NCBI RefSeq assembly: GCF_004834005.1 | Contig: NZ_STFF01000001.1 | Location: 1,363,347-1,427,346 of the forward strand | Source of the DNA: Niastella caeni | GTDB lineage: Bacteria > Bacteroidota > Bacteroidia > Chitinophagales > Chitinophagaceae | Direction: 5' to 3' | Length of the DNA stretch: 64,000 nucleotides | Shown: in pieces, positions 30,404 to 38,095 of the stretch | Position numbering within the stretch: position 1 is the first letter of the stretch | Layout of the letters: each line of letters begins with the position of its first letter | Notes under the pieces: model-generated | Told to the model about the DNA's origin: nothing | The model's database searches: none | Seen by the model: only the letters and a program-made list of their open reading frames with translations | Made by a program: the position numbers and the translations under genes

Positions 30404-31867
30404 TTACTCACCGTCTAACTGATTTTTAACTTTCCATTTCTTTGGTGCAGTTCCATCCATTCGCACAATTTTAGGTGTGAACTTACCTACGATATCAACC
30501 AGTGCCGACTGGCTTTTCATCACTACTTCAATATCCTTGTAGGCATGTGGCGCTTCATCTAACCCACCACCCAGCAATTTCACGCCGTGCCGTTGCAATT
30601 GCTCTTTCAGGTCCTTTTGCGTAATGGCAGCCAAAGCCCTGGTACGGCTCATTTTTCTTCCGGCGCCATGTGATGCAGAAAAAACAGAAGCCTCCTCCCC
30701 TTTTCCCTTCACAATAAAGCCCGGTGCGGTCATTGATCCCGGTATGATCCCTAACACATCTTTACCTGCAGGAGTTGCGCCTTTCCGGTGAACAATTAAC
30801 TCTTTTACTTTTCCATCGGGTGTTACCATCATTTCTTTCCAGGCAAAGTTGTGGTGATTTTCAACCATGGTTATCGGCCTTTCACCGATCGCCCTTGCAA
30901 TTTTTTCATGAATGATATGATGACAGGCACTCGCATAATCACCAGCCAGGTTCATCGCCAGCCAGTATTCAATACCTTCCGGTTCATCCATTTGCAACCA
31001 GGCCAGGTTAACCGCATCACCAGGCAAGCGCCTTTTTTCCTTTGCTATTTTAGTATAATGATTAGCGATATTAGCGCCTAAGGCCCTTGAACCGGAGTGC
31101 GTTAACAAACCAACGTAAACCCCAGCATCAATACCTAAAATGGCATCTTTCTCACCTATTTCAATTAAGCCAAATTCCGCAAAATGGTTTCCCGAACCAC
31201 TTGACCCCAACTGCTTCCATGCTCTTGTCTGTAATCCTTTTAATAATGGCAGTTCATCAAACTCATTGCGCTCCATTACTTCGTGGTCAGCAGCCTCATC
31301 AAACACTGCTCCGCTACCAAACAAGGTTGCTTCCTGCAATTCTCTTGTATATAAATTTTCCCGCTGTATCAATTCTTTCGGATTAATTGGGAAAACACTT
31401 AAACACATACGGCATCCGATATCAACACCTACGCCATAAGGGATCACCGCGTTTTCCGTTGCCAGTACGCCACCAATAGGTAACCCGTAACCGGCATGTG
31501 CATCGGGCATCAAAGCGCCGGCTACGCTAATGGGTAATTTGGCAGCCTGGTGCATCTGGTGCATGGCGCCTTCTTCAATATGTTCGCTTCCGAATACATT
31601 GAATTGAATTCCCGTACTGTTCAATGGAATAGCTTCTCCTGTCTCCACTATTTTCTTTGGTATCAGTTGTTGTGCAATCAACCCTAACACGGCATCATTT
31701 TCATACTCCACCGGAGCACTCAATATTTTTTTCAATAACTCCATCACATCCTCCTTTTTCTCATGCTTATAATTCTTCTCCATTACGTTCATTGCTATGC
31801 TTATCACCGGTCCTTGGGGATAACCAATTGCTCTTAACTCTTTTCCTGATAACTTTAATTTCGCCAT
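30404..31867 (-). CDS. rtcB: tRNA-splicing/RNA-repair ligase RtcB
   Basis: A 487-residue RtcB. It joins 2',3'-cyclic phosphate or 3'-phosphate ends to 5'-OH ends using GTP and Mn2+. The Mn2+ ligands are visible: Asp149 and Cys152 in VDIGCRM, His228 in GSGNHF, His257 in LTHSGSRALG and His340 in NHHNFAW. The guanylated His400 is in SASHGAGRKMSR. The length is normal for the family. It follows the DinB-like gene by 14 nt and ends a run of minus-strand genes that includes a slipin, a YkuK-like protein, an AAA+ ATPase and a tRNA array. This context points to tRNA as the repair substrate. Confidence 0.96.
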   Translation of the reverse strand: MAKLKLSGKELRAIGYPQGPVISIAMNVMEKNYKHEKKEDVMELLKKILSAPVEYENDAVLGLIAQQLIPKKIVETGEAIPLNSTGIQFNVFGSEHIEEGAMHQMHQAAKLPISVAGALMPDAHAGYGLPIGGVLATENAVIPYGVGVDIGCRMCLSVFPINPKELIQRENLYTRELQEATLFGSGAVFDEAADHEVMERNEFDELPLLKGLQTRAWKQLGSSGSGNHFAEFGLIEIGEKDAILGIDAGVYVGLLTHSGSRALGANIANHYTKIAKEKRRLPGDAVNLAWLQMDEPEGIEYWLAMNLAGDYASACHHIIHEKIARAIGERPITMVENHHNFAWKEMMVTPDGKVKELIVHRKGATPAGKDVLGIIPGSMTAPGFIVKGKGEEASVFSASHGAGRKMSRTRALAAITQKDLKEQLQRHGVKLLGGGLDEAPHAYKDIEVVMKSQSALVDIVGKFTPKIVRMDGTAPKKWKVKNQLDGE

Positions 31868-31881
31868 TTTTTTAATTTTAT

Positions 31882-32448
31882 TTAGCCGACTCCAAGGTTG
31901 AACTCAATTTCAACCAGCTCCATTTGGGTAATGTGTCTTTGGGCATGTTGAACCAGAAAGTATATATAATGATAAACGTCTATTTTACCCAGATTATTTA
32001 CACTCATCATAGTTTTATGCAAAACACCTTCACCATGCTGCAACGTTAGCAAGTGCGTACGGCATTGCTTCAATTGTTGTTCTAATTCGTGCCGTATTGC
32101 TGCAACCGGCATCTTGCCTCGCGGTTGCATATGATCAGGCCGACTCCACTCAAACGATCTATGCTGACCGATTATCTTCATCCGTTCCCAATCCAGATCA
32201 TAATCAACCAGGATGCCGGAAAAATCTTCTTTTTTCGATCTTTCCAGTGCTTTTTTAGAGCCCTTACTGATAAACATCAGCAAATAATGGTTCGTCAGCG
32301 ATACATGTTCCAATATTTTACGAATGCTCCATCCCTTATTATCAGGTGCATAATGCAACAGCTCATTATCAATATTAAACCATTTGAACAATTCATCAAA
32401 GGTTTGTTTGAGCTCTGTTTCAATAATATTAATCACATCAATCATCAT
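31882..32448 (-). CDS. DinB-superfamily four-helix protein
   Basis: 188 residues. The DinB/YfiT-type metal-binding histidines are visible: LEHVSLTNHYLL near residue 47 and QHAQRHITQM near 168-177. Members are thiol-dependent transferases or unassigned metalloproteins. It lies 14 nt upstream of rtcB and is very probably co-transcribed with it. A role in RNA repair is not established for this family, so the link rests on operon structure only. Confidence 0.75.
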   Translation of the reverse strand: MMIDVINIIETELKQTFDELFKWFNIDNELLHYAPDNKGWSIRKILEHVSLTNHYLLMFISKGSKKALERSKKEDFSGILVDYDLDWERMKIIGQHRSFEWSRPDHMQPRGKMPVAAIRHELEQQLKQCRTHLLTLQHGEGVLHKTMMSVNNLGKIDVYHYIYFLVQHAQRHITQMELVEIEFNLGVG

Positions 32449-32486
32449 ACTTAAACTGCTTACTGGTTACTTACAAAAGCTTAACC

Positions 32487-32520
32487 GAATGTTTAGAAAA
32501 GCATCCGCCTCGCGGCGGAT
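32487..32520 (+). repeat. Copy 1 of a repeat flanking the slipin-to-tRNA segment
   Basis: GAATGTTT-AGAAAAGCATCCGCC followed by an inverted arm GGCGGAT (ATCCGCC/GGCGGAT stem, TCGC loop). A close copy in the same orientation lies at 37208-37246. It sits between the slipin and DinB genes. Confidence 0.6.
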
Positions 32521-32610
32521 ACTTTAGTTCTCAAGGCTATACAACTTACAAGCTACCTGCCCGTTCTTACGGCTACAGGCTTTTATTTTTCAGCACCTTT
32601 AATAGGCTGA

Positions 32611-33711
32611 TCATTTTTGTGATACCAGGATCTGCTTCAACTGATCAAGCAGTACACCGTTGCCGTTAACACTGATATTGCTGATCTTGTCTGCTATCTT
32701 TTCAACATATTCCATTTCTTTCAACTTCCACAGCATGGCATTTTCTTCCATCAGTTTGGCAGTGTTCAGCAGGCTACGGGTGCTGGCAGTTTCTTCACGA
32801 CGCATAATGATGTTCGCCTGTGCTTTCTTTTCGGCGATCAACACCTGGTTCATGATCTCCTTCACATCACCTGGCAGAATAATATCCCGGATACCAAATC
32901 CATTCACTTCCACACCCAATGCTTCAGCATGCTCTTTTACAGCTTCCAGGATAAATTGGGTGATACTTTCTTTCTTTTCCAGCAGCTCATCAAATGGCAG
33001 TGCACCTACGTATTCACGCAGCGCCAGCTGAAATACCACATACAGCTGGTAACTGAAATCCTTGTTCTGCAACACCGCTTTTTCAATGTCCTTCACCTTA
33101 TACTGCGCCCAGGCATTGATACGCAAAGCAGCTTTATCCTTTGTCAGAATTTCCTGTCCGTTGATCTCCGCCTGCTGCTGACGCATATCGAGCTTGTTTA
33201 CCTGTACCACCATCCCGTTCTTCCACCAGTTGTAAACACCTGCATCCAGTGTCTGCACAAACTTTCCATCGATGTACAAAACACCTTTTTCATGGCTTTC
33301 AACAATGAAGGTGCGCACGTAAGGAGCCACCAGTTTATTCTGCAAAGTGGCACGGTCAATGTTTTCAGTGATCTCCACTTTACCAATATCGGCGCGCACA
33401 AAATCATGCTGTATCACACTTTTCCAGAAAGTATAACGACCTGCGGTAAGCACCTGTTTCAGCAATCCGTTCTCGTAGTGCAATACGATCTCATTATCTT
33501 TTACATCCACTACATGCAGTGCATCTGCCAAAACCGTATCCTGCAACAGGATGTTGAGTTCAACAGGGGCAACGAATGGCTTTGTAACGTTGTATTTATG
33601 TACTGTTTCATTTTTCCAGAACCAGTAATTTCCTTCTTTCAGCATTTGCTGGTATACGCCTTTTTTAAATACAAGGGCTACCTCATAGGCGTTTACATGA
33701 ATATTTTTCAT
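32611..33711 (-). CDS. Slipin (SPFH/band-7 family)
   Basis: 366 residues. The SPFH region spans ~95-260 (YVRTFIVESHEKGVLYIDGKF, ALRINAWAQYKVKDIEKAV, ALREYVGALPFDELL). A coiled region follows with EVNGFGIRDIILPGDVKEIMNQV and IAEKKAQANIIMRREETASTRSL, the slipin signature. A typical N-terminal hydrophobic hairpin is absent, so it may be soluble or peripheral. Slipins are known neighbours of RtcB in bacterial RNA-repair operons. Here it lies between degenerate tRNA-like RNAs and the dinB-rtcB pair. Role inferred as a scaffold. Confidence 0.88.
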   Translation of the reverse strand: MKNIHVNAYEVALVFKKGVYQQMLKEGNYWFWKNETVHKYNVTKPFVAPVELNILLQDTVLADALHVVDVKDNEIVLHYENGLLKQVLTAGRYTFWKSVIQHDFVRADIGKVEITENIDRATLQNKLVAPYVRTFIVESHEKGVLYIDGKFVQTLDAGVYNWWKNGMVVQVNKLDMRQQQAEINGQEILTKDKAALRINAWAQYKVKDIEKAVLQNKDFSYQLYVVFQLALREYVGALPFDELLEKKESITQFILEAVKEHAEALGVEVNGFGIRDIILPGDVKEIMNQVLIAEKKAQANIIMRREETASTRSLLNTAKLMEENAMLWKLKEMEYVEKIADKISNISVNGNGVLLDQLKQILVSQK

Positions 33712-33784
33712 TGGTACATTTTTTTAAGGGTTATTAAAATAAAGCCGGGTATTATTTTCCGTCCCGTAATTGCGGAAGCAATAT

Positions 33785-33868
33785 TTACCGGTGTTCGTTA
33801 TACCAGTTCTTCATCGACCTATTTGTTGTAGCATCTTCAACACAATATTTCTTTGAAAGAAGTGGCAT
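33785..33868 (-). CDS. Candidate 27-residue small ORF upstream of the slipin
   Basis: ATG at 33868 to TAA at 33787-33785, encoding a basic peptide that starts MPLLSKKYCVED and ends KNWYNEHR. The frame stays open upstream to about codon -24 without an ATG. I do not recognise it. It lies 73 nt before the slipin start on the same strand and could be a leader ORF or chance. Confidence 0.25.
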   Translation of the reverse strand: MPLLSKKYCVEDATTNRSMKNWYNEHR

Positions 33869-34002
33869 AAACCGCAACGGCTCCTGATAGCCTGCAAAGC
33901 ATTTACCAGATTGCGGTAGCGCTTTTGGCGGTACCGCGGGTCAATAAGCCGGCTTTATGTTGCATTCACCATTTTTGGGGAAGCGGTGTACTTCCTGGAA
34001 TT

Positions 34003-34019
34003 AAGCATTAAGAATGCTT
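34003..34019. other. Perfect 7-bp hairpin between slipin and the tRNA-like RNAs
   Basis: AAGCATT and AATGCTT around a 3-nt loop. There is no T run on the minus strand, so it looks like a processing or stability element rather than a terminator. The rest of 33870-34039 holds nothing I can assign. Confidence 0.4.
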
Positions 34020-34039
34020 TGCGTTTACCATTTTCGCCA

Positions 34040-34110
34040 ATCCTTCAGTAAGGATGTGGGACTCGAACCCACAAATTAAAAGTCGTCGTTCTACCGCTGA
34101 ACTATCCCGG
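34040..34110 (-). ncRNA. Degenerate tRNA-Lys-like RNA (about 58-70 nt)
   Basis: The minus strand carries an intact D arm (GTTC AGCGGTA GAAC), an anticodon-loop-like CTTTTAA (UUU, Lys type) and a perfect T arm (GTGGG TTCGAGT CCCAC). Only 15 nt lie between D and T stems instead of ~23, so the 3' side of the anticodon stem and the variable loop are missing. GGGAT at the 5' side can pair with ATCCT at the 3' side, giving a 5-bp acceptor. Alternatively the 3' end folds into ATCCTT-ACTG-AAGGAT. There is no CCA. It is not a normal translational tRNA. Confidence 0.7.
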
Positions 34111-34112
34111 TA

Positions 34113-34190
34113 TTAGCGGGAAAGGGATTCGAACCCTTGACCTACGAAGTGATGGCATATTCCGATCTTACCACAGCATACAGATAGTTA
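34113..34190 (-). ncRNA. Degenerate tRNA-like RNA with intact T arm
   Basis: The 3' part reads like a tRNA: variable loop AGGTC, T arm AAGGG TTCGAAT CCCTT, then TCCCGCT-A. The 5' part does not supply the matching acceptor strand AGCGGGA. A D-like stem ATCT/AGAT with a long GG-containing loop and a weak 4-bp anticodon-like stem can be drawn. It is followed after 5 nt by the Lys-like RNA, the same tight spacing as in the main array. Confidence 0.6.
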
Positions 34191-34214
34191 CTACATCTGC
34201 ACTGTTGTGCTTCT

Positions 34215-34351
34215 TTAAAACACTAACCTGGTTGTTTTCAACCGGTCATATACCAGCCTTCCCATTGGGGAAGCTCTTAACACCAGATCAGCCAATTACT
34301 AATCATGGTGAATTATTTGAAACTTATCCAGGGGTTTAATTTCTGGATAAG
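34215..34351 (-). other. Hairpin-rich segment between the YkuK-like gene and the tRNA-like RNAs
   Basis: Three stems are visible. CTTATCCAG/CTGGATAAG at 34323-34351 directly follows the YkuK stop. CTTCCC/GGGAAG with a 4-nt loop is at 34258-34273. ACC-GGTTG/CAACC-GGT with a 4-nt loop and one bulge is at 34226-34246. Between the first two, GCT...TGGTGTTAAGAGC resembles a D arm, so this may be a third, strongly reduced tRNA-like RNA. Confidence 0.45.
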
Positions 34352-34355
34352 CTTT

Positions 34356-34838
34356 TTACTGTACTGCTTTATTGGCGCAGCTTGAGCTGGCAAAGGCATG
34401 TGGTTTGGCTTTGAACACAAAACCCATTCCCATGATATAACCCATGGCTTCTTTCAACGCATCATTACTTCTGAAGTTGGGGTTGGTATTAATATCAGCA
34501 TGCACTTCCATGTCTACATTATAAATTGTAAACAGTCGGCATAGTGTGTATGCTATTTCAATACTTTTAGAAACCTCCATTAACATACGCTGTTTGATGC
34601 TCATTTTCTGTTGGGTAGTTTCGTTGTGTATATACATAAACCCACCTTTCCCTTTCCGGATGAACACAATTACCGTAGCGAATTCCGTTTCTTTACCCTT
34701 AACCTGGCTATCGGTACCGATACATACTTTTACTGTATGTCCCATTTCTTTTTCACGAACCAAAACGGCCCTTACTTCATCTTCAATTGACCTGTTGATC
34801 CGTGTACCGTCCAGCCGCCTCCAATGATGCTGTTCCAT
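34356..34838 (-). CDS. YkuK-family RNase H-fold protein (DUF458)
   Basis: 160 residues matching the YkuK/DUF458 family. The first strand carries IGTDSQVKGKETEFATVIVF with Asp43, the likely first metal ligand. MEVHADINTNPNFRSND holds Asp115 and Asp126. The C-terminal SSSCANK occupies the place where the last acidic residue of an RNase H fold is expected but shows Asn. The start ATG at 34838 is preceded by a GGAGG-like site. It lies 25 nt after the AAA+ gene. It could trim or process the nearby tRNA-like transcripts; this is inference. Confidence 0.8.
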   Translation of the reverse strand: MEQHHWRRLDGTRINRSIEDEVRAVLVREKEMGHTVKVCIGTDSQVKGKETEFATVIVFIRKGKGGFMYIHNETTQQKMSIKQRMLMEVSKSIEIAYTLCRLFTIYNVDMEVHADINTNPNFRSNDALKEAMGYIMGMGFVFKAKPHAFASSSCANKAVQ

Positions 34839-34863
34839 GGCTTACCTCCATTCCTTTGTTATT

Positions 34864-35937
34864 TTAATTTTCAATTACGCTTCGTCTAAAACCAATCACT
34901 TCTACCCTGCTTGCCGGCTGCTCTTTTTCATGCGGGTTGGCAATTTCTGCTATGGTCATTGGTTGATTAACTACAGTTTTCAATCCCAAATGATTACTTA
35001 ACCGTTGCGCTTTAGTTATGCTCAATTTTCCAAACTCATATTTTGCAATCAGCCTTCCCTTTCGCATCAACGCACTATCTACCAGCGTAAGCGAACTATT
35101 GAAGGTGCAAATGAGTTGTACATTCAGAAAATCGGCCAGCAATCCGTCTGAAATATTCAACAGGTTCGATACGGCTGACCCCGAATTGTACTTACGATCC
35201 ATGATGATATTTTCTGCATCCTCAATGATCACAACAGTATTGGGATTATCGATCAGTAATTCAATAAAATCAGGGTTCATCAGGTTTCCTGCTACAGTAG
35301 GTGAAAGGAACAACACCCGCTTCTTTATTTTTCCTATCAGGTAACGCAGATACGTTGTTTTTCCCGTACCTGGCAAACCATGCAATAACACTATTCCTTT
35401 ATCATTCTTCTTATTCAACCTTTGCCTGATGATCTCATCCGTTTCCCTGAAATCGTCCTCATAAAAAAGGTCCAGATCCAATTTTGTACGCTTGATCTCC
35501 ATTGCCTTTAATTCGAGCCCATCACTACTTTGCGCAATCAAATTGATCTCAAGAGGCTTACGTCTTTGCCGTTCTTTGCACAGGCCAGCTAATTCAGTTA
35601 TAGCTGCCACGAACTCAGGGCATAAGCCATCATACAGAATATCACAATAACTGGTAGTGATCTCAACCAGGCAATTTTCCTCAAATACAAGCACCGTTCT
35701 ACCGAATTGATATTGCTTATCTTTATTTTTATACCAGCGGAACTGATGTATATTCTTAATTTGACCGGCGTACTTTTCCTTTAGCGCGTTGAATAATTTT
35801 TCGCCATCTATATGGCCTATATAACTCAAACTGGGCAACCGGTTATAATAGTACAGGTATAATATTTTCACATCCAGAAATCGATTGTCAAAAACGCTAT
35901 TAGCATTGATCGACTTCTGCGTAAATAAATTGTCCAT
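34864..35937 (-). CDS. BCS1-like AAA+ ATPase
   Basis: 357 residues from the ATG at 35937. The frame extends to a TTG at 35982, but MDNLFTQKS gives the more plausible start. Residues 1-170 are a non-catalytic N-terminal region. The AAA+ core has Walker A GLPGTGKT (187-194), Walker B VVIIED (235-240), sensor-1 ICTFN (276-280) and MRKGRL (291-296) with the Arg finger region, as in BCS1-like and FtsH-like clades. No peptidase or membrane segment is seen. It follows the last tRNA of the array by 100 nt and probably remodels an RNA-protein complex of this island. Confidence 0.85.
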   Translation of the reverse strand: MDNLFTQKSINANSVFDNRFLDVKILYLYYYNRLPSLSYIGHIDGEKLFNALKEKYAGQIKNIHQFRWYKNKDKQYQFGRTVLVFEENCLVEITTSYCDILYDGLCPEFVAAITELAGLCKERQRRKPLEINLIAQSSDGLELKAMEIKRTKLDLDLFYEDDFRETDEIIRQRLNKKNDKGIVLLHGLPGTGKTTYLRYLIGKIKKRVLFLSPTVAGNLMNPDFIELLIDNPNTVVIIEDAENIIMDRKYNSGSAVSNLLNISDGLLADFLNVQLICTFNSSLTLVDSALMRKGRLIAKYEFGKLSITKAQRLSNHLGLKTVVNQPMTIAEIANPHEKEQPASRVEVIGFRRSVIEN

Positions 35938-35958
35938 ATTTTTCTTTAAATAGTTAAT

Positions 35959-35972
35959 AGAATGATCATTCT
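35959..35972. promoter_or_regulatory. 14-nt perfect palindrome before the AAA+ gene
   Basis: AGAATGATCATTCT is its own reverse complement and sits 22 nt upstream of the ATPase start and 65 nt below the end of tRNA-Trp. It could be an operator or a processing hairpin; no regulator is known. Confidence 0.35.
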
Positions 35973-36036
35973 TTGCTGACAAAGATTTTTCTGCTAACTA
36001 TTTCATTACACGAGTACGCATAACCATATTTTTTAG

Positions 36037-36107
36037 CACGGACACTTCGACTCGAACGAAGACTAATAGTTTTGGAGACTATTATGCTGCCATTACATTA
36101 TGTCCAT
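36037..36107 (-). tRNA. tRNA-Trp(CCA)
   Basis: The cloverleaf is complete: acceptor ATGGACA/TGTCCGT (one G-U), D stem ATGT/GCAT, anticodon stem ATAGT/ACTAT with loop CTCCAAA, T arm CTTCG TTCGAGT CGAAG, discriminator G as in bacterial tRNA-Trp. CCA is not encoded (next bases CTA). It is the last tRNA before the ATPase gene. Confidence 0.9.
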
Positions 36108-36112
36108 ATAGG

Positions 36113-36187
36113 TGGTGCCCCGTGGAATCGAACCACGATGTTCCCGGCTTCAACGGGATGCAATAGAACCATCTCTGCCAAAGCACC
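36113..36187 (-). tRNA. tRNA-Phe(GAA)
   Basis: Acceptor GGTGCTT/GGGCACC (two G-U pairs), D stem GCAG/TTGC with a large 11-nt loop, anticodon stem TCCCG/CGGGA with loop TTGAAGC, T arm CGTGG TTCGATT CCACG, discriminator A. The sequence after it is CCT, so CCA is not encoded. Its 5' end abuts the CCA of tRNA-Glu. Confidence 0.88.
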
Positions 36188-36263
36188 TGGTAGTCTGTAT
36201 GAGGATCGAACTCATCCATCTGGTTCGAAAGACCAGCGCCCTAACCAACTAGGCGAACAGACC
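36188..36263 (-). tRNA. tRNA-Glu(TTC) with encoded CCA
   Basis: Acceptor GGTCTGT/ACAGACT (first pair G-U), D stem GCCT/GGGC, anticodon stem CTGGT/ACCAG with loop CTTTCGA, T arm ATGAG TTCGATC CTCAT, discriminator A. It is the only member of the array followed by CCA (36188-36190). The next tRNA starts at once. Confidence 0.9.
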
Positions 36264-36267
36264 ATTG

Positions 36268-36340
36268 CGGATGAAGAAAGACTCGAACTTTCAACCCCTC
36301 CCTTAACAGGGGAGCGCTCTTACCATTGAGCTATTCATCC
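36268..36340 (-). tRNA. tRNA-Asn(GTT)
   Basis: All stems are perfect: acceptor GGATGAA/TTCATCC, D GCTC/GAGC, anticodon CTCCC/GGGAG with loop CTGTTAA, T arm GAAAG TTCGAGT CTTTC. The discriminator is G as expected for Asn. CCA is not encoded (CAA). Confidence 0.93.
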
Positions 36341-36351
36341 ATTTTTATTTG

Positions 36352-36425
36352 TTGGCCCGATGAGACTCGAACTCATGGTCCCCCGGTTAAAAGCCGGGTA
36401 CTTTTGCCAACTAAGCTACGGGCCA
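36352..36425 (-). tRNA. tRNA-Lys(TTT)
   Basis: Acceptor TGGCCCG/CGGGCCA, D stem GCTT/AAGT (one G-U) with a 9-nt loop, anticodon stem CCCGG/CCGGG with loop CTTTTAA, T arm ATGAG TTCGAGT CTCAT, discriminator A, followed by CAA. The acceptor stem is identical to that of tRNA-Ile(TAT) at 36588, suggesting duplication within the array. Confidence 0.92.
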
Positions 36426-36430
36426 TTTTG

Positions 36431-36502
36431 TAGCGACCTCCGGAATTGAACCGGAATGACCACCTTATGAGAGTGGGGTGTTAGCCTTTACACCAGGTCG
36501 CT
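36431..36502 (-). tRNA. tRNA-Met(CAT)
   Basis: Acceptor AGCGACC/GGTCGCT, D stem GTGT/ACAC, anticodon stem CCACT/GGTGG (one G-U) with loop CTCATAA, T arm TCCGG TTCAATT CCGGA, discriminator A, followed by CAA. The paired first acceptor bases (A-T) argue for an elongator-like Met or a lysidine-modified Ile rather than the initiator. Confidence 0.88.
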
Positions 36503-36507
36503 TATTG

Positions 36508-36580
36508 TGATGACTGACAGACTCGAACTGTCAACCTGTACCGTATCAGAGTACTGCTCTACCAATTGAGCTAAGTCATC
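36508..36580 (-). tRNA. tRNA-Ile(GAT)
   Basis: Acceptor GATGACT/AGTCATC, D GCTC/GAGC, anticodon stem GTACT/GGTAC (one G-U) with loop CTGATAC, T arm GACAG TTCGAGT CTGTC, discriminator A, followed by CAA instead of CCA. Confidence 0.93.
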
Positions 36581-36587
36581 TTCTATG

Positions 36588-36660
36588 TTGGCCCGACCGG
36601 ACTCGAACCGGTAACCTTTTGCGTATAAGGCACTTGCTCTTACCATTGAGCTACGGGCCA
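36588..36660 (-). tRNA. tRNA-Ile(TAT) with mismatched anticodon stem
   Basis: Acceptor TGGCCCG/CGGGCCA, D GCTC/GAGC and T arm ACCGG TTCGAGT CCGGT are perfect. The anticodon stem AGTGC/GCAAA keeps only three of five pairs around loop CTTATAC. Discriminator A, then CAT. A UAU anticodon decoding AUA directly is uncommon in bacteria, which normally use lysidine-modified CAU. Confidence 0.85.
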
Positions 36661-36669
36661 ATATTTCTG

Positions 36670-36740
36670 ATGGCTTAGAAAGAGTCGAACTTTCATCCCT
36701 GCGTTCGTAGCACAGTATTCTTCCATTGAACTATAAGCCA
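36670..36740 (-). tRNA. tRNA-Arg(ACG)
   Basis: Acceptor TGGCTTA/TAAGCCA, D stem GTTC/GAAT (one G-U) with a short loop, anticodon stem CTGTG/CGCAG (one G-U) with loop CTACGAA, T arm GAAAG TTCGACT CTTTC. The discriminator is T, unusual for Arg. Next bases are CAG, so CCA is not encoded. Confidence 0.88.
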
Positions 36741-36748
36741 GTTTCGGG

Positions 36749-36825
36749 TGAGCCGTCCCGGTGAGCCGGGAAACCCTGTTCTTCCCATTCACAGCGGAAC
36801 GCTTTACCAAATAAGCTACAGCCTC
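36749..36825 (-). tRNA. Degenerate tRNA-His-like gene (GTG)
   Basis: The D arm (GCTT ATTTGGTA AAGC) is normal and the anticodon loop CTGTGAA reads GTG. The anticodon stem TTCC/GGAA has an extra G. The T arm lacks TTCRA and is replaced by TCCCGG CTCA CCGGGA, six pairs with a 4-nt loop. The acceptor pairs only with a bulge. A 9-nt direct repeat (CGGCTCACC, 13-nt period) overlaps the abnormal T arm, as if created by a small duplication. It is likely not a normal substrate for translation. Confidence 0.65.
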
Positions 36826-36831
36826 CATTTG

Positions 36832-36903
36832 TTGTCGAGATTGGATTCGAACCAATATCATCAGGGTCAAAGGCTGATATGCTAACCATTGCACCACTCA
36901 ACA
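36832..36903 (-). tRNA. tRNA-Gln(TTG)
   Basis: Acceptor TGTTGAG/CTCGACA (one G-U), beginning with the U1-A72 pair used by GlnRS. D stem GTGC/GCAT, anticodon stem TCAGC/CCTGA with a C-C mismatch next to loop CTTTGAC, T arm ATTGG TTCGAAT CCAAT. Discriminator A, then CAA. Confidence 0.87.
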
Positions 36904-36910
36904 ATTACAG

Positions 36911-36982
36911 CAGTTCGTACGGGAATCGAACCCATAGCTTCGGATAGACAATCCGAGGTGTTAGCCATTACACCAACGAACT
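36911..36982 (-). tRNA. tRNA-Asp(GTC)
   Basis: Acceptor AGTTCGT/ACGAACT, D stem GTGT/ACAC, anticodon stem TCGGA/TCCGA with loop TTGTCTA, T arm ATGGG TTCGATT CCCGT. The discriminator is G as for AspRS. Base 37 is T, where a purine is nearly universal. Followed by CTG. Confidence 0.88.
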
Positions 36983-36987
36983 ATTAG

Positions 36988-37059
36988 AGCAGCACCAGAG
37001 ATTCGAACTCTGTCCTCCTGATTGGAAGTCAGGGACGCAACCATCAACGCTTGTACTGC
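36988..37059 (-). tRNA. tRNA-Gly(TCC)
   Basis: Acceptor GCAGTAC/GTGCTGC (one G-U), D stem GCG/TGC, anticodon stem CCTGA/TCAGG with loop CTTCCAA, T arm CAGAG TTCGAAT CTCTG, discriminator T as in bacterial tRNA-Gly. Followed by CTA. Confidence 0.88.
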
Positions 37060-37064
37060 TTTTG

Positions 37065-37137
37065 TATAGGAGACAGGACTCGAACCTGCAGCCTCCCCGC
37101 TCCAGACGGGGGATCCGACCAACCGGAATACTCCTAT
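37065..37137 (-). tRNA. tRNA-Pro(TGG)-like, first gene of the array
   Basis: Acceptor ATAGGAG/CTCCTAT, short D stem TCC/GGA, anticodon stem CCCCG/CGGGG with loop TCTGGAG, T arm GCAGG TTCGAGT CCTGT, discriminator A, then CAA. Read with a 7-nt loop the anticodon is TGG (Pro), but base 33 is then C instead of the universal T. A one-base shift would read CTG (Gln) at the cost of a stem pair. Confidence 0.8.
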
Positions 37138-37142
37138 ATTTT

Positions 37143-37165
37143 GTAGCGGTCGTGGCAACCGCTAC
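37143..37165 (-). other. Perfect 8-bp hairpin just upstream of the tRNA array
   Basis: GTAGCGGT and ACCGCTAC around a 7-nt loop, 5 nt before the first tRNA. There is no T run, so it is not a terminator for the array. It may be a 5' processing element of the multi-tRNA precursor. Confidence 0.45.
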
Positions 37166-37207
37166 AGTTTCATAAGGGTTTAATTTTAGTCAGGCTTAAT
37201 GGTCAAT

Positions 37208-37246
37208 GAATGTTTTTGGAAAAGCATCCGCCAGCCGACGGACGCT
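37208..37246 (+). repeat. Copy 2 of the flanking repeat
   Basis: GAATGTTTTTGGAAAAGCATCCGCC followed by an imperfect inverted arm. It matches the copy at 32487-32520 over about 23 positions with small gaps, in the same orientation. The two bracket the slipin, tRNA-like, YkuK, AAA+ and tRNA-array block. Confidence 0.6.
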
Positions 37247-37285
37247 TATTTTCCTCCTTTTTGAACTCTTATCTTCAATCACTTT

Positions 37286-37426
37286 CTATCGGATCTGGAA
37301 TGCTGCAGGATGTCTTGCTTCCCTTTCATCTGCATCCTGTTGAACGTTATTCTTGTTCGCTTTGGCTTTATTCTCGAATAAAGCAATAATGAAACGGATC
37401 ATAAATACACTCATTAATAATTTCAT
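37286..37426 (-). CDS. Candidate 46-residue small protein preceding the tRNA array
   Basis: ATG at 37426 to TAG at 37288-37286. A purine-rich GGAAGGTAGGTG lies just before the ATG. The product has a hydrophobic N-terminus (MKLLMSVFMIRFIIALF) and a charged tail (QQDADEREARHP). It lies on the same strand as the array, 149 nt upstream of its first tRNA, and may be the first gene of that operon. I do not recognise it. Confidence 0.45.
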   Translation of the reverse strand: MKLLMSVFMIRFIIALFENKAKANKNNVQQDADEREARHPAAFQIR

Positions 37427-37499: not shown

Positions 37500-37537
37500 A
37501 AAAAAGCCCGGTCGTTTTTGTCGACCGGGCTTTTTAT
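37500..37537. terminator. Strong bidirectional terminator
   Basis: GCCCGGTCG and CGACCGGGC form a 9-bp stem with a 7-nt loop, with A5 before and T5 after, so it works on either strand. On the minus strand it closes the 40-residue small ORF at 37564-37686. Confidence 0.85.
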
Positions 37538-37563
37538 TCGATACCTGTTTTTTACAGTTTCGT

Positions 37564-37686
37564 TTAAACACAACCTGGTCGTATTCGAGTACTATCCTCT
37601 TGCTTGCCGCCATTGATATACATTTCCACTTGCGCATTTGCACACGTATTCCAATGAATAAATCGTTTTGTATTATCCACCATCAT
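37564..37686 (-). CDS. Candidate 40-residue small protein
   Basis: ATG at 37686 (a second ATG follows) to TAA at 37566-37564. The product has two Cys residues (HWNTCANAQVE and RPGCV at the end) and a Gly/charged middle. The strong terminator at 37500-37537 lies 27 nt after the stop, which supports an expressed short gene. Not recognised; could be a small regulator or secreted peptide. Confidence 0.4.
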   Translation of the reverse strand: MMVDNTKRFIHWNTCANAQVEMYINGGKQEDSTRIRPGCV

Positions 37687-37894
37687 TCGTCGTATATGTT
37701 GCAATGATCCCGGCATCAATTTGTATATGATTATTTAGATGTTGTTACTAATAAATTTCATAAGCCTGTTTTAATAATTTTTTTCTTTCCCAAACTCACT
37801 TACTAACTATTACACACATATGAATATAGCACACCCATTCCTATTGGTCATGGGATTTCCTTTTCGCTGTTATTTTTTAAACAGCCGATAAATA

Positions 37895-37920
37895 AAAAAC
37901 CCCGCAATTCCTTGCGGGGC
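37895..37920 (-). terminator. Intrinsic terminator after the 30-residue small ORF
   Basis: CCCCGCAA and TTGCGGGG form a perfect 8-bp stem with a 4-nt loop. On the minus strand it is followed by TTTTTTATTT. It lies 30 nt after the stop of the ORF at 37950-38042. The stretch 37690-37890 holds only a 13-codon ORF and a GCTGTT/AACAGC hairpin. Confidence 0.85.
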
Positions 37921-37949
37921 CTGTGTTATATCGAATTCGTTTTTTCAAC

Positions 37950-38042
37950 TTATTCTTCAGCGTAACACGCCCCGCAAACAGTAAAGTCACCTATCGGACT
38001 CCATCCGTTCAGTACTTCAATATGTGATTGTTTGCGTAACAT
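37950..38042 (-). CDS. Candidate 30-residue CxxC peptide with its own promoter and terminator
   Basis: ATG at 38042 to TAA at 37952-37950. The peptide begins MLRKQSHIEVLNGW and ends DFTVCGACYAEE, with a CxxC pair near the C-terminus. A promoter-like pair lies 21 nt upstream and a perfect terminator 30 nt downstream, so it is a well-delimited transcription unit. Not recognised; a metal-binding or thiol peptide is possible. Confidence 0.5.
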   Translation of the reverse strand: MLRKQSHIEVLNGWSPIGDFTVCGACYAEE

Positions 38043-38062: not shown

Positions 38063-38095
38063 CAAAGGTGTCAATAATTTTTCAATTACACCAAA
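38063..38095 (-). promoter_or_regulatory. Promoter-like elements before the 30-residue ORF
   Basis: Minus-strand TTTG (38092-38095), a 21-nt spacer and CACCTTTG (38063-38070), one mismatch from TAnnTTTG. Confidence 0.45.

Follow-up and report, generated by a model that had tools for sequence, protein, structure and literature searches.

A predicted tRNA-array and RNA-repair operon of Niastella caeni and its relatives, preceded by two probable attenuator leaders whose codons span the amino acids

The 64,000-nucleotide stretch of Niastella caeni DNA considered here (assembly GCF_004834005.1, contig NZ_STFF01000001.1, positions 1,363,347 to 1,427,346 of the forward strand; henceforth the window, in whose positions coordinates are given) carries on its minus strand an array of tRNA genes followed by genes for an AAA+ ATPase, a YkuK-like RNase H-fold protein, an SPFH/Band-7 protein, a DinB-like protein and the RNA ligase RtcB. 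The array and these genes probably constitute a conserved operon lying behind two attenuator leaders, with antitermination setting in when ribosomes stall, be it from cut tRNAs or from blocked translation more generally. In textbook cases, an attenuator leader senses one particular amino acid. The predicted anatomy here is likewise that of a transcription attenuator, and yet of a variant rather than a classical member of that class, since the leader codons span all amino acids; the novel part lies in these regulatory codons, which cover all amino acids instead of one.

The two pairs of leader open reading frame (ORF) and intrinsic terminator occupy 38042-37900 and 37716-37506 of the minus strand, directly upstream of position 37426 and hence outside the limits of an earlier, sequence-only reading of this region. 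Leader ORF 1 (37950..38042, on the minus strand like every window feature below) has 30 codons and encodes MLRKQSHIEVLNGWSPIGDFTVCGACYAEE, with all 20 amino acids in 28 different codons; it is followed by terminator T1 (37894..37919; CCCCGCAAGGAATTGCGGGG-TTTTTT). Leader ORF 2 (37564..37716; MPGSLQHIRRMMVDNTKRFIHWNTCANAQVEMYINGGKQEDSTRIRPGCV) has 50 codons and again all 20 amino acids, while an inner ATG at 37686 would give a form of 40 codons with 19 amino acids; the outer ATG is present in relatives too. Terminator T2 (37500..37530) reads GCCCGGTCG-ACAAAAA-CGACCGGGC-TTTTTT, and T1 and T2 are the only two intrinsic terminators found on the minus strand in a scan of 22 kilobases (kb). Twenty nucleotides (nt) upstream of leader 1 lies a predicted promoter-like site (38063..38095; TTTG-N21-CACCTTTG) of what we take to be the Bacteroidota type. 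Upstream of leader 1, TTTG was seen by eye in 16 of the 17 loci printed (GTTG in L053) and a CTTTGC box in all 17; a regular-expression search for the promoter in the upstream sequences of the loci gave no match.

Relatives were drawn from a scan of species genomes with an alignment of the AAA+ protein, the best 80 of the 209 loci matched being kept, so that selection was by AAA+ similarity. Within 5 kb upstream of the AAA+ gene, 75/80 have at least one leader-terminator pair, defined as an ORF of 18-60 codons whose stop falls 40-62 nt short of the T-run, and 64/80 have at least two. The pattern was first noticed in a listing of ORFs with at least 17 amino acids; the later counts come from a rule blind to diversity, which picks as leader 1 an ORF of 26-34 codons, nearest to 30, with its stop 40-62 nt before the T-run and preference for a motif. 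By this rule of length and gap, leader 1 has 26-34 codons in 72/80 relatives, giving 73 picks with the window; none was obtained in L043 (whose leader has 41 codons), L047, L068, L071, L072, L087, L089 and L094, and the picks in L059, L067, L101, L109 and L111, all outside array loci, are probably second leaders or unrelated. The leader-1 stop lies 43-54 nt from the T-run (mode 50), and an ORF of 26-34 codons at that distance precedes 95/188 upstream terminators as against 5/135 control terminators from the same loci. Single-base codon differences among 32 leaders (codons 2-20) are synonymous in a proportion of 0.467, compared with 0.216 at random, a figure that ignores kinship and base bias. 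Leader 2, taken with the longest ATG start and at most 60 codons, was obtained for 54 of the 73 loci. In several Chitinophaga loci without tRNA arrays (L099, L101, L102, L104, L105, L107-L113 and L115), leader-terminator pairs precede both the DinB-like gene and the AAA+ gene; the module apparently serves more than one transcription unit.

Leader 1 can form two mutually exclusive helices, both of which covary. The 5' arm of antiterminator 1 (37962..37978) lies within leader codons 22-27, where the Cys-Gly-Ala-Cys-Tyr codons contain GCGGGGCGTGTTA; its partner, the 3' arm (37912..37929), belongs to the terminator region and overlaps the left arm of T1. Pairing of 37962-37978 with 37929-37912 amounts to -23.7 kcal/mol (z -4.35 against shuffles), and for antiterminator 2, whose 5' arm (37556..37582) lies at the end of leader 2, the values are -16.2 kcal/mol and z -2.37. 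With shuffles that preserve mononucleotide composition only, an antiterminator at p<=0.05 is found in 55/73 leader-1 elements and 38/54 leader-2 elements, as against 7/135 control terminators (where a control has no ORF, the stop was assigned 50 nt before the T-run). Over 48 of the 73 leader-1 elements, 25 near-duplicates or doubtful picks having been removed by hand, antiterminator 1 is 88.8% paired with a covariation of 0.121 (shuffled 0.061, slid registers at most 0.048) and terminator 1 is 93.9% paired with 0.261 (shuffled 0.066, slid at most 0.057); for the antiterminator, two of five measures, double-change pairs and further pair types, do not rise above shuffles.

An RNA model built on the leader-1 element scores 111.9 bits at its own site in the genome, and the next match, at 29.9 bits, precedes a prephenate dehydratase gene (PF00800, 189 bits). 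This element (L117, G000:C10:194239-194346, plus strand) has the leader MNIAKAYGFFYFYFYFYFTSRPGMLLLTTK, with its stop 49 nt before the T-run and the same geometry as leader 1; it is a Phe/Tyr attenuator and serves as an internal positive control. In a kinetic version of a ribosome simulation, in which the RNA ended before the right arm of the terminator, a ribosome covering the 5' arm leaves no antiterminator, while the P-site codons permitting one are 1-19 in leader 1, 1-31 in the 40-codon form of leader 2 and 1-17 in the control. The Phe/Tyr run of the control spans codons 9-18 (with Gly-Phe at 8-9), and ribosomes awaiting any Phe or Tyr of the run stand within its antiterminator window.

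The amino-acid completeness of the leaders exceeds chance. Random 30-mers of the protein composition of the loci hold on average 14.98 different amino acids, with P(>=19) of 0.0036 and P(20) of 0.00015; windows of real proteins hold 14.34, reaching at least 19 at 0.0015 and 20 at 0.00013. Among the 28 array loci used for statistics (the window and 27 of the 29 relatives with at least 5 tRNAs), leader 1 has at least 19 amino acids in 18 (0.11 expected), and leader 2, present in all but L040 and L088, has all 20 in 16/26 (0.94 expected). Mean leader-1 diversity is 18.64 in loci with at least 5 tRNAs (n=28), 16.64 with 1-4 (n=14) and 16.23 with none (n=31), and it correlates with array size (rho 0.67, kinship ignored). 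When residues are shuffled within alignment columns over 13 leaders at most 67% identical to one another, mean diversity falls from 18.62 to 17.58, and 0/5000 shuffles reach the observed value; therefore the residues of a leader compensate for each other. The same shuffle applied to the AAA+ (30 windows) and SPFH (22 windows) proteins gives mean z of 0.08 and 0.35, with a highest value of 2.01. An independent set was provided by 29 loci from the RNA model, of which 24 remained after removal of 5 already seen (L148 and L150 have an identical leader): an ORF is present in 23 and has at least 19 amino acids in 8. Completeness at the level of codons was considered and dropped, as chance, given the leader-1 peptide, reaches its 28 distinct codons in 12.7% of cases. 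No single amino acid stands out in leader 1, and the enrichment typical of classical attenuators is absent from it. This bears on the notion of an ordinary amino-acid starvation attenuator coupling tRNA supply to growth rate: the geometry does equal that of the prephenate-dehydratase attenuator of the same genome, but with no amino acid enriched in the leaders, and with RtcB lacking an obvious place in starvation, we regard it as improbable.

The set of amino acids in the leaders also matches that of the array, and does so in a locus-specific manner. How often each of the 20 amino acids is represented in arrays correlates with its presence in the leader-1 control window (rho 0.69, p 0.0008). 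For presence in both leader windows (26 loci), the value is 0.878 for array amino acids and 0.649 for other amino acids; it drops from 0.878 to 0.838 when arrays are swapped between loci, and 0/2000 swaps reach the observed value. Part of the match is forced by RNA structure, because the Cys and Ala of leader 1 lie in the antiterminator arm.

The proposed mechanism presupposes that the leaders are translated and that the array and the genes behind it are transcribed together. Under free translation the ribosome would cover the antiterminator arm while the polymerase makes the terminator, and transcription would stop at T1 or T2, the two serial terminators holding basal expression low. Were any of most aminoacyl-tRNAs to be missing, the ribosome would halt upstream of the arm, the antiterminator would form first and the polymerase would read through into the array. 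Since each amino acid is represented by one or a few codons, mild starvation would evoke a weak response; a strong one would follow when a tRNA is almost wholly lost or ribosomes stall in general, as anticodon nucleases or translation inhibitors would bring about. Induction would then yield, on one hand, replacement tRNAs, presumably open to charging, whose bodies are foreign and whose anticodon loops are in part altered, and, on the other, RtcB with its SPFH partner and the tRNA-like RNA described below, which would reseal cut tRNAs.

A number of observations weigh against this account. A leader pair is missing in 5/80 loci, two of which lie at contig ends (L068, L072) and three of which are not cut by contig ends (L047, L071, L087), and the antiterminator misses p<=0.05 in 18/73 leader-1 and 16/54 leader-2 elements. 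The clean switch appears only in the kinetic version of the simulation and not at equilibrium, where folding gives the terminator at every leader-2 position and at 29/31 positions of the control, with leader-1 codons 11-17 mixed; equilibrium folding, being not decisive, was set aside as a proof of the switch. Even in the kinetic version, the antiterminator is no longer blocked once the ribosome stands at the stop codon, in leader 1 as well as in the control. Given serial terminators, a response would need amino acids in both windows and not strictly all 20. The composition of leader 2 is not significantly related to the arrays (rho 0.35, p 0.13), and the locus-specific part of the match is small (0.878 vs 0.838), with kinship between loci only partly controlled. 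Finally, 8 leaders from loci without arrays also exceed the column shuffle (17.25 vs 15.75); therefore completeness belongs to the operon and not to the array alone, and since such leaders behave alike the shuffle was ruled out as array-specific evidence.

The retention of diverse leaders in loci without arrays also fits a different proposal, according to which the leaders sense translation-inhibiting antibiotics or ribosome slowing in general, their even usage avoiding a response to any single amino acid, with tRNA damage not being the natural trigger. In Anabaena, antibiotics that inhibit translation induce the trn operon and relieve the repression of both trn and rtcB (PMC10272220), and the toiL leader senses at least five antibiotic classes (PMC12121999). 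Set against this are the locus-specific tracking of array amino acids by those of leader 1 and the product of the operon, which consists of tRNAs and RtcB, not of efflux or ribosome-protection functions. We consider the antibiotic-sensing alternative a serious but rather unlikely one.

Turning to the array itself (36036..37137), ARAGORN recognizes 13 tRNA genes, in the order of transcription Pro-TGG, Gly-TCC, Asp-GTC, Gln-TTG, Arg-ACG, Ile-TAT, Ile-GAT, Met-CAT, Lys-TTT, Asn-GTT, Glu-TTC, Phe-GAA and Trp-CCA. In gathering mode the Rfam tRNA model recovers 12, and laxer filters add Pro (41.3 bits, cut-off 29). Where the sequence-only reading had counted 14, thirteen thus stand and the fourteenth (36762..36825) is decayed, scoring 25.7 bits, below the gathering score of 29; it is His by position, for its slot between Gln and Arg holds tRNA-His(GTG) in the close relatives L038, L039 and L042. 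The same reading had held that the array should not comprise the only copies of its isoacceptors in the cell. With 150 of 393 candidates scored, the genome has 55 tRNA matches, 42 of them outside the array, and 11 of the 13 array anticodons recur among these 42 by ARAGORN; for Ile-GAT and Ile-TAT no copy outside the array was found in the assembly. Ala-TGC was likewise not found in the assembly, and as a genome without it is hard to imagine, some tRNA genes, perhaps in unassembled ribosomal RNA operons, are probably missing from it. A single 16S gene was detected, at the end of a contig, and ARAGORN reports no tRNA in the 7.4 kb around it (L173, G000:C16:347500-354946). Elsewhere in the genome (L035, G000:C14:153882-153953), ARAGORN reads a tRNA with a four-base anticodon (cgca), with no amino acid assigned.

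The array tRNAs are, to judge from comparison with their host counterparts, not recent copies of host tRNAs, because they are just 53-69% identical to the host isoacceptors and in 9 of the 11 comparable cases find their best match in a tRNA of another amino acid. The anticodon loop is unlike that of the host in 6/11 (Pro, Asp, Gln, Arg, Glu and Phe). Such divergent bodies, along with the decayed tRNA and the two tRNA-like modules in the RNA before the SPFH gene, might speak for the array being made of decoys that absorb anticodon nucleases and are not used in translation, an option the sequence-only reading had left beside that of spare tRNAs. This option is now less favored: despite the low identity of the bodies, the discriminator base is identical to that of the host isoacceptor in 10/11 (Arg being the exception, and the Phe end having been read by eye), ARAGORN folds all 13 as cloverleaves, and 12 amino-acid identities would be needless for decoys. 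We hold the decoy reading to be quite improbable. Among the 28 arrays the most frequent tRNAs are Asn-GTT (25), Lys-TTT (24), Gln-TTG (23), Phe-GAA and Arg-ACG (22 each) and His-GTG (21), and a Thr tRNA is found in 0/28. PrrC and colicins E5 and D classically attack the tRNAs for Lys, Asn, His, Asp and Arg.

The one-strand arrangement that had been read from the sequence between 37426 and 30404 is real: a small ORF, the tRNAs, AAA+, YkuK, a tRNA-like stretch, SPFH, the DinB-like gene and RtcB follow each other, all on the minus strand, and the protein labels given there stand, with RtcB, DinB_2, Band_7, RNaseH_like (YkuK) and AAA each exceeding the Pfam cut-off. The small ORF (37286..37426) encodes a conserved protein of 46 residues with a hydrophobic N-terminus and the C-terminal HPAAFQIR; small ORFs with a C-terminal HPA motif occupy the corresponding place in 25 of the 54 loci examined. 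It sits between T2 and the array and is perhaps a third regulated product. The AAA+ ATPase (34864..35937; 357 residues, PF00004) probably starts at 35937 rather than 35982, as an alignment (A1) indicates, and its predicted structure has a mean predicted local distance difference test (pLDDT) score of 58.9. It is followed by the YkuK-like RNase H-fold protein (34356..34838; PF04308, 127.7 bits) and, beyond a noncoding region, by the SPFH/Band-7 protein or slipin (32611..33711; PF01145, 105.5 bits), the DinB-like protein (31882..32448; PF12867, 38.6 bits) and RtcB (30404..31867; PF01139, 262.5 bits), whose match is the single one in the whole genome. A genome search gave 0 matches for RtcR and RtcA, while the positive controls did match; with these two not found, the leaders could replace RtcR as the sensor.

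The noncoding region before the SPFH gene (33712..34355, 644 nt) aligns over 37 loci including the window, and the degenerate tRNA-like RNAs that had been seen in it by sequence alone (about 34165-34050) are real and part of a conserved structured RNA, as the alignment of loci and its covariation demonstrate, even though their scores (27.0 bits for tRNA, 38.6 bits for YrlA) lie below the gathering scores. The structure consists of twin tRNA-like modules (34140-33974), each with a T-arm, a capped acceptor hairpin and a D-arm, the second also having an anticodon arm. Over 29 of the 37 loci its 36 pairs are 96.6% paired with a covariation of 0.575 (shuffled 0.207, slid at most 0.151); the capped acceptor pairs at 93.6% in module 1 and is less regular in module 2, where three of the pairs stand at 82.8%. 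With gaps removed, the capped acceptor of module 1 is paired in 134/145 cells as against 77/145 for an ordinary acceptor. A tRNA of ordinary order was also tried for module 1 and rejected, its acceptor pairing 53.1% in the tRNA register against a shuffle mean of 55.2%; one slid register reached 69.7% with a covariation of 0.334, so that some exchange between the two modules, whose acceptor strands are alike, may be possible. No tRNA is detected by ARAGORN in the region. With their parts arranged as T-arm, acceptor and D-arm, the modules are circularly permuted tRNA-like units; because a loop closes their acceptor ends, they would presumably not be chargeable as tRNAs. The nearest Rfam model is YrlA (38.6 bits against a gathering score of 69, E 8.1e-6), a score below that expected of a Y RNA; a Y RNA with a Ro60 partner was rejected, as no TROVE gene was found in the N. 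caeni genome. A tRNA-like RNA was reportedly described with Band-7 repair modules by Burroughs and Aravind in 2016, and only the twin-module structure is possibly new.

The 80 loci belong mostly to Chitinophagaceae/Chitinophagales, the rest being labelled Bacteroidota, Bacteroidetes, Bacteroidia or Sphingobacteriales, with one Beijerinckiaceae. Counting genes on the AAA+ strand from -5 to +10.5 kb, RtcB is found in 59, YkuK in 43, SPFH in 38 and DinB in 26; at least 5 tRNAs are present in 29 and at least one in 47. That the gene set is peculiar to this genome, a prospect the sequence-only reading had raised against itself, is not borne out: a search for co-occurrence finds an array of at least 5 tRNAs with RtcB, SPFH and YkuK in 21/80 loci, and with DinB in addition in 7/80; the order of YkuK and AAA+ varies among relatives. 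Paired relatives of the RlaP nucleotidyltransferase occur in 8/80, and in 6/80 there are TROVE/Ro60 relatives within the island or immediately ahead of it (both by Pfam on examples), the TROVE genes lying at L069:+4211, L062:+2746, L080:+2851, L070:-3362, L074:-3228 and L075:-3238 relative to AAA+. A protein of 251 residues without a Pfam match recurs on the AAA+ strand in L102 (+1173 from AAA+) and 14 other loci. L093, on the contig labelled Beijerinckiaceae, has AAA+ (59%), RtcB (59%) and a leader-like ORF, by misbinning or lateral transfer. The attenuator model at E<=0.001 matches 9/10 genomes of the genus including that of N. caeni (the exception being 61% complete), 7/14 other genomes of the family and 0/15 other genomes of the order; at E<=1e-4 and with stricter filters it matches 54/147 genomes of the family. 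Weak matches may be ordinary attenuators such as the Phe/Tyr element.

This distribution bears on whether the array was left behind by a phage or mobile element and only happens to adjoin unrelated genes. Phage genomes do have tRNA arrays, and relatives of the AAA+ protein at 26-46% identity occur in 22 viral contigs (L122-L143; 12 to 389 kb), but these loci, in stretches of up to 11 kb, show no RtcB, SPFH, YkuK, TROVE or RlaP and at most 5 tRNAs, for which reason a phage origin was rejected, and the gene set with its leaders recurs across many genera of Chitinophagaceae. The relic explanation is thus extremely improbable.

The probable operon behind attenuator leaders may be given a more specific sense, for which we see roughly even chances: that of a Chitinophagaceae operon for surveillance of tRNA integrity, with a "pangram" leader pair through which the ribosome itself would probe nearly all aminoacyl-tRNA families in one passage, both serial terminators opening on the loss of any of most of them, with divergent tRNAs that evade nucleases, and repair by RtcB, SPFH and the tRNA-like RNA, acting as counter-defence against anticodon nucleases. 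The combination of spare tRNAs and repair suggested by the sequence-only reading fits with the redundancy of the array with host tRNAs, the RtcB, RlaP and TROVE genes in the loci of relatives and the predicted stall-sensing leaders. If true, a leader with all amino acids would be a sensor of the whole tRNA pool, built from codons and two hairpins. It would join spare tRNA arrays, RtcB repair, SPFH proteins and tRNA-like RNAs in one response and would offer a simple test of when spare tRNA arrays are used; the leader could also be used in the laboratory to report the action of defence nucleases and of toxins that cleave tRNAs. In the titles and opening lines of abstracts listed by searches of the open-access literature, which for the most part leaves out subscription papers, we found no description of an all-amino-acid leader, nor of its combination with an attenuator-controlled tRNA array and with RtcB, SPFH and tRNA-like RNA.

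Parallels with known systems may be drawn for the individual parts. To our knowledge, neither a tRNA array nor an attenuator has been described in SPFH/Band-7 RNA-repair modules. As in such modules and in Pseudomonas aeruginosa, which has an rtc-linked SPFH gene (PMC13086221), the SPFH gene of the island stands beside RtcB; what differs is that its tRNA-like RNA is resolved into two capped-acceptor modules. The trp, his and phe attenuators share with the island the leader ORF, the antiterminator overlapping the leader end and the terminator (PMC1183508): the short leader ORFs of the island end before an intrinsic terminator, and an antiterminator that excludes the terminator has its 5' arm where a translating ribosome would cover it, equilibrium folding being less clear on this. 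They differ in having codons of a single amino acid, where leader 1 of the island has all 20 and leader 2 all 20 or 19, and the island has two serial units that precede tRNA and RNA-repair genes instead of biosynthesis genes. The toiL upstream ORF of E. coli is similar in that one short ORF responds to many kinds of ribosome stall, but it acts on translation start and Rho-dependent termination and controls a toxin-antitoxin pair, and the abstract on it makes no mention of its spanning all amino acids (PMC12121999).

The rsr-yrlBA-rtcBA operon, which senses tRNA damage, resembles the island in that RtcB adjoins a noncoding RNA with a tRNA-like module, and RtcR is a known sensor of tRNA fragments (PMC7790460); in contrast, RtcR, RtcA and Rsr/TROVE were not found in the Niastella genome, and the signal predicted for the island is a stalled ribosome rather than a tRNA fragment. 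Phage tRNAs that evade anticodon nucleases (PMC10264068) provide a likeness in being extra tRNAs with changed anticodon loops (6/11 in the island), whereas the array of the island is chromosomal, conserved, situated behind attenuators and linked to RNA repair. A parallel in gene content is offered by Anabaena, where one stress regulon, governed by the repressor protein TrcR of the RHH family, takes in an inducible tRNA array along with rtcB, a slipin and an AAA ATPase (PMC10272220, PMC9938897). The long array of extra tRNAs in its trn operon (the L-array) is normally silent and is induced by translational stress, and redundancy of the array with housekeeping tRNAs, which marks this type, holds for 11/13 anticodons in the island; its AAA ATPase may correspond to the AAA+ of the island. 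The genes of Anabaena are scattered under TrcR, while those of Niastella form one cluster behind tandem leader attenuators. The Anabaena regulon lends independent support to such a gene set acting together (PMC10272220).

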